Below, piece after piece: positions 41,481 to 44,213 of a DNA stretch of 47,379 nt; within the stretch, counting starts at the first letter, position 1; the number at the start of each line of letters is the position of its first letter. The position numbers and the translations under genes were made by a program. The notes below the pieces were generated by a model that saw only the letters and a list, made by a program, of their open reading frames with translations, ran no database searches and was not told the origin of the DNA. Source of the DNA: Opitutus sp. GAS368 (GTDB taxonomy: Bacteria > Verrucomicrobiota > Verrucomicrobiia > Opitutales > Opitutaceae); assembly GCA_945874455.1 (NCBI GenBank), contig CAMCHO010000011.1:1-47379 (forward strand). The letters run 5' to 3'.

Positions 41481-44213
41481 ATGGATTTTTCCCTCGATGC
41501 CCGCACCGCCCGACTGAGCGTCGGGGAGTTCTCCTCCTTCAAGCTCGGCCCCCACGCCGCCGGCAGCGGCGGCGGTTCCGCGGGTGTCTGGCGCGCCCAA
41601 CTCGGCACCCACTGGCACCACGAACTCCGCGCGCAAGCCACCGCCACCGCCCCCGCCACCGAATTTGAAGTTCCCATCGCAGGCCGCCTCGTCCACCGCG
41701 GCTGGACGCTCACGCTCACCGGCCGCATCGACCAGCTCCTCCGCCCCACCCCCGCGCCCGTCGACTGCCGCGACGCCCCCCTCCGCCCCCCCGGCGACAC
41801 TTGTCACGTATTACGTGACAAACCCTCGGTGCCACCTCCTGAAAAGTGTCACGTATTACGTGACACTTCGCCCGTCGCGCTCCCAAACGTCTTGATCCTC
41901 CGGGAAATCAAAACCGTCACGCGGGCACTGCCCGTCGACGAATCTGAACTCCGCCGCGACTATCCGGAATATTTCGTCCAACTCGCCACCTACGCCGCCC
42001 TCTGGCGCCTTGATCCTCAGAACGCCCTGTTGCGCCCTAGCGCCGCCGAAGTTTCCCGCTCTCCGCTCTCTGGTCTTAGCGCTCAGCTCATCTTCGTCGA
42101 AGCTTCCAGCGGCCTCGCCCAAACCGTCACCCTCACTTCCGCCGACGACGCGCTCCTCCGCGGCCAACTCGAACGCGTCGCCGAGTTCCTCACGCTCCGC
42201 CACCGCGCCCGCGAACGCCTCCGTCACCTGCGTTTCCGACCTCCTTTCGCCACCCCACGCCCAGGCCAAGAAACCACCCAACGCGATCTCACCGCCACCT
42301 TCGAGCGCCACCCACTCGTTCTGTTCGAAGCTCCCACCGGCTTCGGCAAAACCGGCGTCCTCCTCGAATTTGCCCTCGGCCAACTTCGTTCCGGCCACTT
42401 CGACCGCGCCCTCTACCTCACGAGCAAATCCACCGGCCAGCTCCAAGTCGTTCGTACCTTGGCGGCCATGACGGCAGAACCGACATCGCCGCCAGTGCAA
42501 AGCCAGGAGTTAACAGTTGAGGTTGCCCCGTCCGCAGCCCTGCCCGCTTCCGCCTCTGCAACGTTCAACTCCCCGCTCCCCACCGACGCGACCGCGCCGG
42601 CCGTCGCGTCCTGGCATGTCCGCAATAAATCCGAGCACTGCGTCAACGCCGTCTTCCACTGCGTCCGCGAATCCTGCTCCTACCTCGACAACCTCGCCCA
42701 GCGTTGGCCCACCACCGGCCTCGCCCGTTTCTACATCGACGAACACCACGCGCGCGACCTCGACACACTCCGCGCCGCCGGTCGCGACGCCCGCGTCTGT
42801 CCGTACGAAATCACCCGCGCCGCCCTGGCCTTCAACGATGTCTGGATCGGCGACTACAACTACGTCTTCGCCCCCGCCAACCGCTCTCTTTTCTACAACC
42901 AACCCGGCTTCGACCCCGCCCGCACCCTGCTGCTCCTCGACGAAGCCCACAATCTCCCCTCGCGCGTCGCCGACGCTCACTCGCACGTCGTCCGCGCCGA
43001 GGATGTCCGCGCCGTCCTCGCCGAGCTCGATCACCTCCACTCACCCGCCGCCCTCGTCCGTGCTTGGGAATCTTGGACGCTCCTCGTCGGCGCCTTGCAA
43101 CCCGTCGACCTACTCGACCACGCCCTCGAAGCCGATGCCGCCGACACCCTTTCGAAAATCGCCGACCAACTCGCTCTCACGCCCCCCGATCCCTCCGCCC
43201 TGGGCCCGACCCTCTCCGCCATTCTGTGGCAAGCCCCCCAGCTCGCCGCGTGGCTCGCCGACCCCGCGCTGAAAAAACTTCTCTGGACTCCGCGCGCCGC
43301 CGAACTCCATTTCACCTGTATCGACGCGGCTGACACCATCGGCGAAACGCTCCGCACCTTCGGCGGCGCCGTCTTCGCCAGCGCCACGCTCACCCCCATC
43401 GACGCTTTCACGAGCGCCATCGGCCTCTCCCCATCACTCGTCTCAAACCTCAAATCCCCAGTCTCAAATTCGCCCGCCTCCGTGCCGATGCTCAGCGCTC
43501 AGCTCTCGACGCTCAGCGCCTCCACCGCCCTCTCCGCCCCCACGCACCTCCGCGCCCACACCCCGTGGCGCGACGCCGCCTACGACCTCGCCGTCGATGC
43601 CCGCGTCGACACCACCTTCCACCATCGCTCGCGCCACTTCGCCACCACCGCCGCCACCATCGCTGCCCTCCACGCCTCCGCCGCATCGTGCGTCGCCGTC
43701 TTCTTCGCTTCCTACGCTTACGCCGACTCGATCGCGCGCCTGATCACCGCCGGCTTTCCTCTCCGCGTCGCCGTCCAGCCCAAGCTCCGCGACCTCGCCG
43801 CGCAATCTGCCTGGGTCGACGAATCCCTCGCCCTCGCCGATGCGCTTTTCCTCGTGCTCGGTTCCAGTTTCGCCGAAAGCATCGACGCACTCGGTGGCCG
43901 CATCACGCACGCCATGGTCGTCGGCCCCGCGCTCCCCGAGGTCAACGCCCTCCAACGCGCCCGCCTCGACGAAGCCACCCGCGCCGGTCTCACCCGCGAG
44001 CAAGCCTTCCGCCGCGTGTATCAGATTCCCGGTATCACGCGCGTGAACCAAGCCCTCGGTCGCCTCGTGCGCGCCCCGGGCCAACGCGCCCGCGTCATTC
44101 TCCACTGTAAACGCTTCCTCGAGCCCAGCTACGCGAGCCTCCTCGCCCCCGAATACCAACTCGGTGCCAACCTCCTCGCCGACGCCGACCTCACCGCTTG
44201 GCTCGCGCGCTAA
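41481..44213 (+). CDS. Cas4/RecB-like nuclease fused to XPD/DinG-type helicase
   Basis: 910 residues. The N-terminal third carries PD-(D/E)XK nuclease motifs: His46/47 in THWHHEL, GRIDQL (Asp84), REIKT (Glu142, Lys144) and QLATYA (Gln167, Tyr171). The rest is a superfamily-2 Rad3/XPD/DinG-type helicase: Walker A EAPTGFGKT (283-291), four cysteines that could hold an iron-sulfur cluster (387, 394, 399 and 440, the last in CPYE), DEAHNLPS (487-494), FASATLTP (642-649) and NQALGRLVR (856-864). It probably unwinds and cuts DNA in repair. The gene stands alone with no CRISPR genes nearby. Low-complexity or palindromic inserts lie at residues 104-136, 335-380 and 650-690, always between motifs. Confidence 0.9.
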   Translation: MDFSLDARTARLSVGEFSSFKLGPHAAGSGGGSAGVWRAQLGTHWHHELRAQATATAPATEFEVPIAGRLVHRGWTLTLTGRIDQLLRPTPAPVDCRDAPLRPPGDTCHVLRDKPSVPPPEKCHVLRDTSPVALPNVLILREIKTVTRALPVDESELRRDYPEYFVQLATYAALWRLDPQNALLRPSAAEVSRSPLSGLSAQLIFVEASSGLAQTVTLTSADDALLRGQLERVAEFLTLRHRARERLRHLRFRPPFATPRPGQETTQRDLTATFERHPLVLFEAPTGFGKTGVLLEFALGQLRSGHFDRALYLTSKSTGQLQVVRTLAAMTAEPTSPPVQSQELTVEVAPSAALPASASATFNSPLPTDATAPAVASWHVRNKSEHCVNAVFHCVRESCSYLDNLAQRWPTTGLARFYIDEHHARDLDTLRAAGRDARVCPYEITRAALAFNDVWIGDYNYVFAPANRSLFYNQPGFDPARTLLLLDEAHNLPSRVADAHSHVVRAEDVRAVLAELDHLHSPAALVRAWESWTLLVGALQPVDLLDHALEADAADTLSKIADQLALTPPDPSALGPTLSAILWQAPQLAAWLADPALKKLLWTPRAAELHFTCIDAADTIGETLRTFGGAVFASATLTPIDAFTSAIGLSPSLVSNLKSPVSNSPASVPMLSAQLSTLSASTALSAPTHLRAHTPWRDAAYDLAVDARVDTTFHHRSRHFATTAATIAALHASAASCVAVFFASYAYADSIARLITAGFPLRVAVQPKLRDLAAQSAWVDESLALADALFLVLGSSFAESIDALGGRITHAMVVGPALPEVNALQRARLDEATRAGLTREQAFRRVYQIPGITRVNQALGRLVRAPGQRARVILHCKRFLEPSYASLLAPEYQLGANLLADADLTAWLAR
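41801..41868. repeat. two perfect palindromes inside the helicase gene
   Basis: The 19-base palindrome TGTCACGTATTACGTGACA occurs twice, centred at 41811 and 41856. The first is symmetric over 21 bases (41801-41821), the second over 25 bases (41844-41868). The copies are 45 bases apart, exactly 15 codons, and both are read as CHVLRD, giving two near-repeats in the protein (residues 107-137) between nuclease motifs GRID and EIKT. This looks like an in-frame REP-type insertion and duplication. Confidence 0.95.
42075..42090 (+). repeat. short CAGCGCTCAGCT-type microrepeat in helicase gene
   Basis: TTAGCGCTCAGCTCA encodes part of LSGLSAQL (residues 196-203), the same wording and frame as the copies in ybeY and at 43490-43522. 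It is short, so it is supported mainly by those other copies. Confidence 0.45.
43437..43522 (+). repeat. CTCAAA/CTCAGCGC microrepeat cluster in helicase gene
   Basis: A run of TCTCAAA-CCTCAAAT-TCTCAAAT units (43437-43470) is followed by GCTCAGCGCTCAGCTC and a GCTCAGCGCC unit (43490-43522). In the protein this is SNLKSPVSNS and LSAQLSTLSAS (about 655-681), a stretch between helicase motifs with no conserved residues. It is probably an inserted low-complexity segment. Confidence 0.65.

Follow-up and report, generated by a model that had tools for sequence, protein, structure and literature searches.

We analysed a stretch of 47,379 nucleotides from Opitutus sp. GAS368 (contig CAMCHO010000011.1 of assembly GCA_945874455.1, the window in what follows), and in particular a pair of palindromes that lies in frame within a helicase gene, together with the dispersed family to which the pair belongs. 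The N-terminal segment of the helicase (GRIDQ...EIKT), which has no domain match, we take to be nuclease-like, as a candidate reading. Both palindromes are symmetrical around a central T and contain the 19-mer TGTCACGTATTACGTGACA, at 41802-41820 and 41847-41865 (+), with a spacing of 45 bp. Both are read as CHVLRD, between GRIDQ and REIKT of the open reading frame (Table 1). The preliminary description of this DNA had reported the two positions, the spacing, the extent of the symmetry, the CHVLRD frame and the placement between GRID and EIKT, and all of these are confirmed. It had also held a chance origin to be very unlikely, which agrees with our counts. The 19-mer gives 4 matches with up to 3 mismatches (two places, both strands), 100 dinucleotide shuffles giving 0.01 on average, and with up to 2 mismatches it is found at 42 places of the 5.07-Mb genome against 0 for a reversed control pattern. 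G-numbers designate the genomes compared, G000 being the own genome, and L-numbers the loci read.

Table 1. Features of the palindrome-bearing helicase gene, in window positions
Feature	Start	End	Strand	Basis or remark
Host gene, 910-amino-acid helicase with DEAD_2 and Helicase_C_2 domains	41481	44213	+	List of open reading frames; Pfam
51-codon stretch between GRIDQLLR and LREIKT, containing the palindrome pair	41745	41897	+	Orthologue comparison
Palindrome copy A, ACTTGTCACG...GACAAAC type, perfect over 21 bases	41801	41821	no strand
Linker joining palindromes A and B	41822	41843	+	Near-identical in G002 and G003, recognisable in G005
Palindrome copy B, GAAAAGTGTCACG...GACACTT type, perfect over 25 bases	41844	41868	no strand

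Insertion, dispersal and symmetry of the palindrome

The stretch between GRIDQLLR and LREIKT counts 6 residues in the empty helicase orthologues of G006 and G007 (L244/L245) versus 51 in the own genome, a net gain of 45 codons. Two palindromes are present in G000, G002 and G003 (the second being imperfect in G002 and G003) and three in G008, the first of which is degenerate. The G005 orthologue holds a variant pair, TGTCACGTATTAAGTGACA and TGTCACTTATTAAGTGACA. Because orthologues are empty in some relatives and contain variant palindromes in others, the helicase palindrome is an insertion, and the segment, absent from several orthologues, is not conserved at the residue level. Several more orthologues have palindrome-free stretches of variable length at the same place. 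The site thus tolerates additions, and the gene has probably survived because the 45 added residues fall in a stretch that is length-variable even without palindromes.

Other genes are concerned as well. The palindrome lies within Pfam domains of an RNA methyltransferase and a radical SAM protein, which we take to be RsmE-like and RlmN-like (Pfam supplies the domains only), and of 3Beta_HSD, AAA_28 and methyltransferase proteins, as well as in the open frames of a UvrA-like protein, a glycosyltransferase and a lipase maturation factor. In the methyltransferase gene a palindrome read as CHVIRDT occupies the identical place in four loci (L135, L163, L171 and L037), probably as an old common insertion. 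Under a strict coding test, 17 of the 149 site clusters fall within a gene and the other 132 are not placed in any. Twelve of the 17 are in the CHVLRD/CHVIRD frame, including L058, the G002 orthologue of the window gene. The five in another frame are one at residue 4 (probably upstream of the start), one meeting a stop, one without open frame, L102, located beyond the Pfam match, and L119 (DmsC), which looks real.

The palindrome is not unique to the helicase gene. With up to 1 mismatch the 19-mer is present in 21 of 57 genomes, i.e. in 21 of the 37 Opitutaceae (own genome included) and in none of the 20 genomes that belong to the order but not to the family. A scan of species genomes gave the exact 19-mer in at least 110 stretches, the 80 listed titles being all Opitut-, Synoicihabitans or Verrucomicrobia bacteria, and no viral contig contained it. 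A covariance model, for which one palindrome may count on both strands, matches 17 of 35 genomes, including a single weak match outside the family (E 0.003). Copies occur singly, as pairs (mostly 45-58 bp apart where seen) and as arrays (C25 of the own genome). Unpartnered half-sites amounted to no more than 4 near-matches in the 1.06 Mb of DNA examined. Five own-genome copies (L019, L023, L025, L028 and L032) stand in the middle of units of about 115 bp with AGTATTACTCTGTTA ends that are like miniature inverted-repeat transposable elements (MITEs). These ends are missing or only weakly resembled at the remaining own-genome loci read. Among the ends listed for 9 genomes, no two are spaced at 1-5 kb, as a sign of an autonomous parent; G005 (C4) has one pair at a distance of 10.6 kb. 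At L140:15-173 the palindrome sits in the middle of a far longer inverted repeat, which is imperfect and whose arms measure about 65 bp.

A TATTA centre is constant in most copies, and changes in the stem are matched on both sides. Stem variants include TGTCAC, TGTAAC, TTTCAC, TGTCAT, AGTAAC and others. The stem covariation score, determined for 50 copies drawn from 137 diverse ones, is 0.307 versus 0.107 after shuffling, none of 500 shuffles being as high, and it is best at slide 0. The first outer pairs match in 92% and 71% of 151 copies versus 40% and 34% when shuffled. As judged by sequence comparison, it is established that the palindrome is dispersed, single, paired or arrayed, and inserted in and between genes, with a TATTA centre and matched stem changes. 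Dispersal, empty orthologues and in-frame copies in unrelated genes also support what the preliminary description had proposed, a family entering coding DNA in the manner of repetitive extragenic palindromic (REP) sequences or Rickettsia palindromic elements (RPE).

Predicted helix-turn-helix genes framed by palindromes

Clustering of 495 predicted proteins encoded near palindromes led to the detection of a small, predicted helix-turn-helix (HTH) protein of about 120 amino acids, whose gene has palindromes on either side in the own genome, G003, G005, G006, G007, G011 and others. The candidate IS21-like transposase beside the palindrome was rejected, that protein cluster being the HTH family. 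For the HTH protein all Pfam matches were below the cut-off, NCBIfam gave nothing relevant, no PDB sequence was matched at E≤1 and PHROGs returned chance-level matches only. AlphaFold predicts helices at residues 51-67, 70-77, 81-89 and 97-111 (in the numbering of L125, which is 7 less than that of L017), with a mean predicted local distance difference test score (pLDDT) of 71 and values of about 80-89 at residues 51-90. Foldseek comparison of this model gave weak matches (best E 0.3), mostly with HTH domains of the XRE/lambda-repressor type. The gene is present in 20 of the 57 genomes, all Opitutaceae, and in 130 of 252 genomes of the family, not being found in 122. Of the viral stretches, 23 matched HTH peptide patterns and none encodes a relative. 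At L130:2724-3458 an HTH domain is fused in one open frame with a piece that we take to be IstA-like (IS21), and a similar frame is seen in G100 (L445).

We read 89 HTH loci (L411-L499) of a family that has more; this denominator retains the doubtful loci L424, L434, L435, L436, the weak L437, and L445, whose gene position was misassigned. L424, L434, L435 and L436 form a paralogue clade (SRQRLH, own genus) for which no palindrome was found beside the gene. A palindrome with a 5-nt loop lies within 170 bp of 72 of the 89 loci, and more distant control windows contain one for 25 of the 89. The searched length is 380 bp near the gene versus 340 bp in the control, and the control windows may themselves hold real copies. 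TATTA-type palindromes occur within 170 bp on both sides of 47 HTH genes and on one side of 20 (67 of 89 in total), and TATTA or TAATA loops make up 119 of the 163 palindromes at these loci. HTH genes are thus very often framed by TATTA-type palindromes. Across genomes, in raw counts that ignore relatedness, an HTH match exists in every genome with at least 8 19-mers (G000, G002, G003, G005-G008, G014, G018, G028, G030, G034 and G035), and likewise in G011 and G017, which are palindrome-rich by the covariance model.

Correspondence between recognition helix and stem

The stem next to the gene varies with the residues of the HTH protein. Among 67 HTH genes, R at residue 88 goes with G at stem base 2 in 61 of 61 cases, and P or A with T in 6 of 6; H or D at residue 92 goes with C at base 4 (44 of 45) and Q with A (6 of 7). 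As for residue 87 and base 6, D goes with A and S with T, each in 4 of 4 cases, and P goes with C in 52 cases, T in 6 and G in 1. Regarding residue 93 and base 7, E is found with G in 74 of 78 arms, and Q with T in 17, G in 13, A in 6 and C in 2. Arginine with G, and glutamine or asparagine with A, are classical contacts. When the 103 variable columns are ranked, the best ones for bases 2, 4 and 6 are residues 88, 92 and 87, at the predicted recognition helix. This ranking is a control of a kind, since all columns share the same tree. When the helix columns are left out of the protein tree, 6 changes are counted on it at base 4 and 8 at base 6. Independent pairs on supported branches follow the residue in 1 of 1 case for base 2, in about 2.7 of 3 for base 4 and in about 2.3 of 5 for base 6, the rest not differing and none being opposed.

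Variant stems stand beside the HTH gene in G005, G011, G025 and G034, and in G005 and G011 they are dispersed stems too. G017 has dispersed TGTCACC and TGTCATC stems (plus minor ones), with one HTH gene beside each, and a third gene without palindrome. The HTH cassettes of G000, G003, G005, G006 and G008 are syntenic, in matching surroundings. In G005 the helix reads RIHQ for RVHE (V91I, E93Q), and TGTCACT half-sites represent 16 of the 28 read there versus 2 of 58 in G000 and in G008, orthologous places included. Covariation of protein and stem speaks for the other possibility raised in the preliminary description, that the palindrome could be a protein-binding site.

From this covariation we infer that an HTH dimer would bind the palindrome with one recognition helix per half-site, and that residues 88, 92, 87 and 93 may contact bases 2, 4, 6 and 7, respectively. 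The stems of a genome would then shift upon a change of the recognition helix. The weakest step, suggested by analogy with the role of REP-associated tyrosine transposases (RAYTs) for REPs, is that HTH binding may be needed for the copying or upkeep of the element. As the HTH protein has no recognised catalytic domain, it would have to recruit an enzyme encoded elsewhere.

Weighing of the explanations

In terms of anatomy, there is good support for an insertion family accompanied by an HTH protein. We consider it probable that the palindromes constitute a REPIN/RPE-like insertion family of the Opitutaceae whose partner is the small HTH protein and not a RAYT. A stronger version, which we put forward only tentatively and with more doubt than conviction, is a self-spreading two-part system made of the HTH protein and a mobile operator palindrome that enters reading frames, with sites following helix changes and no transposase of its own.

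Several observations weigh against an HTH partner. Concerning specificity, N at residue 92 goes with either base (C 7, A 6); for bases 3, 5 and 7 the best columns (95, 100 and 100, respectively) are immediately next to the helix core or past it; T at base 2 has a single origin in the protein tree, so that the R88 link is one evolutionary event; and the independent pairs (1, 3 and 5) are too few for significance. The covariation of the outermost arms within one genome (types A and B of the own genome) is left unexplained by HTH specificity. Concerning association, 22 of the 89 HTH genes have no TATTA-type palindrome nearby. The only HTH gene of G002 is a palindrome-free paralogue, the gene of G030 lacks a neighbouring palindrome, and in G018 and G028 the gene is next to TGTAACG and TGTCACC, respectively, the dispersed 19-mers being TGTCACG. 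In G012 (7 19-mers, 16 model matches) no HTH gene was found, and G004, G025, G031, G032 and G036 have an HTH gene with 0-4 19-mers. Finally, no copying enzyme was found.

The palindromes could also be the operators of an ordinary regulon, not mobile, controlled by an autoregulated XRE-like HTH regulator. The correspondence of helix and stem would fit such a regulon, as would the dominance of XRE-type folds among the weak structural matches and, with gene contexts from our own crude gene caller, the many G011 copies between divergent genes. A predicted HTH fold and palindromic sites beside the own gene are indeed features of XRE/lambda-repressor-like autoregulators. Here, however, the sites are tens, dispersed and spread by insertion, also in genes. 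Copies are insertions of tens of bases with linkers, found in arrays and in the MITE-like units too, and in the other-genome set, by the same first-look gene contexts, they lie within 40 bp of a gene at 29 of 130 3' sides versus 4 of 98 5' sides. Since copies are insertions, occur in genes and crowd 3' and not 5' ends, a pure regulon is unlikely.

Another explanation is that the HTH protein binds chromosome-organising sites, comparable to matS, SlmA or Noc sites, whose copies are retained for their usefulness. Among 75 orthologous pairs free of gaps (5 of 80 with core gaps were left out, and a single place can contribute to several pairs), the 19-mer is often identical despite differing flanks. 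The palindrome cores are identical in 22 of 24 pairs at flank identity of at least 0.93, and differences number 14 versus 30 expected at 0.87-0.93 and 39 versus 71 at 0.8-0.87. This upkeep is over-estimated, however, because most pairs were chosen as both holding the palindrome, and pairs at flank identity 0.6-0.8 show 82 core differences versus 67 expected, with decayed copies. Such decayed copies are found in the RNA methyltransferase gene of G006 and G007. The distribution in G011 could also suggest chromosomal organisation, as contig C1 has about 27 palindrome places with 1 between 2.54 and 4.66 Mb, a window picked afterwards. Against this, the 19-mer is missing from 16 of 37 family genomes, including G001 and G004 of the same genus, and the HTH gene was not found in nearly half of the family genomes. 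We regard this explanation as improbable, a little more so than the regulon.

The association with RAYT transposases (Y1_Tnp) suggested in the preliminary description did not hold, and an ordinary REP/REPIN family moved by such an enzyme is largely refuted. REP/REPIN systems with RAYT (REPtrons; PMC2817692, PMC3116915, PMC3733652) share dispersed palindromes, pairs, arrays, some copies in genes, matched stem changes and the framing of a partner gene by these palindromes, and our copies resemble them also by their proximity to gene 3' ends. Y1_Tnp genes are moreover common, with 4 in the own genome and presence in 29 of 35 genomes. However, no copy is found in the roughly 3 kb surrounding each of the four own-genome genes, and 0 of 93 Y1 stretches (76 distinct; the 93 include 6 from outside the family but within the order) has a TATTA palindrome. 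Many of these stretches bear their own GC-rich hairpins repeated around the transposase, a positive control indicating that REPs can be detected there. GTAG or GTGG is never found directly outside the stem (0 of 302 arms, 151 copies), and anywhere in the 8 bases outside it is found in 8 of 302 arms versus 2 of 302 for the control. Palindrome-free genomes such as G001 and G013 nonetheless have Y1 genes. Our system thus differs from REP/REPIN systems by a small HTH partner without Y1 domain, the lack of a GTAG foot, the TATTA centre, and the other hairpins that the Y1 loci of these genomes carry. As a separate observation, the Y1_Tnp genes at L045, L201/L317, L181/L304, L320 and others are framed by GC-rich hairpins of their own, e.g. 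CATGGGCT-TTCC-AGCCCATG, and these look like ordinary REPtrons of the Opitutaceae.

Selection for an RNA hairpin (terminator or mRNA stabiliser), with a secondary HTH link, would account for the perfect stems and the copies near gene 3' ends, but is very improbable, as one-sided (G-U type) changes in the eight inner pairs are nearly absent, occupying 1 cell versus 13 for two-sided ones, and none of 20 own-genome loci is matched by Rfam at E≤1.

The insertion family with an HTH partner has parallels in PMC3733652. RPEs and the CGTC-tagged REPs described there are likewise inserted in frame in unrelated genes, often as dimers, and CGTC repeats are presented there as not associated with a transposase. 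They belong to another bacterial lineage. A candidate cognate gene is present here, and the likeness to RPEs is one of behaviour only. Closer in taxonomy, the same source reports for Opitutus terrae, of the same bacterial family, GTAG repeats inserted within uvrA and within genes of DNA ligase and RNA helicase. Unlike our palindromes, those repeats are GTAG/GTGG-tagged, a residual overlap with the G011 palindromes being conceivable. The text of the 19-mer is in none of the papers searched, and no printed description of the palindrome/HTH family was encountered in a coverage that was thin for subscription journals and did not include the O. terrae consensus figure of PMC3733652.

The present family, with its candidate partner protein, bears on the question of how REP-like palindromes with no assigned transposase, such as RPEs and CGTC REPs, spread. 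The same peptide (CHVLRD/CHVIRD) has been added repeatedly to unrelated proteins of these bacteria. The HTH partner, encoded by roughly half of the 252 genomes, comes in natural variants of specificity that are paralleled by variants of the site. Because natural variants of protein and site match, binding, the specificity code and the putative role in spreading are directly testable.

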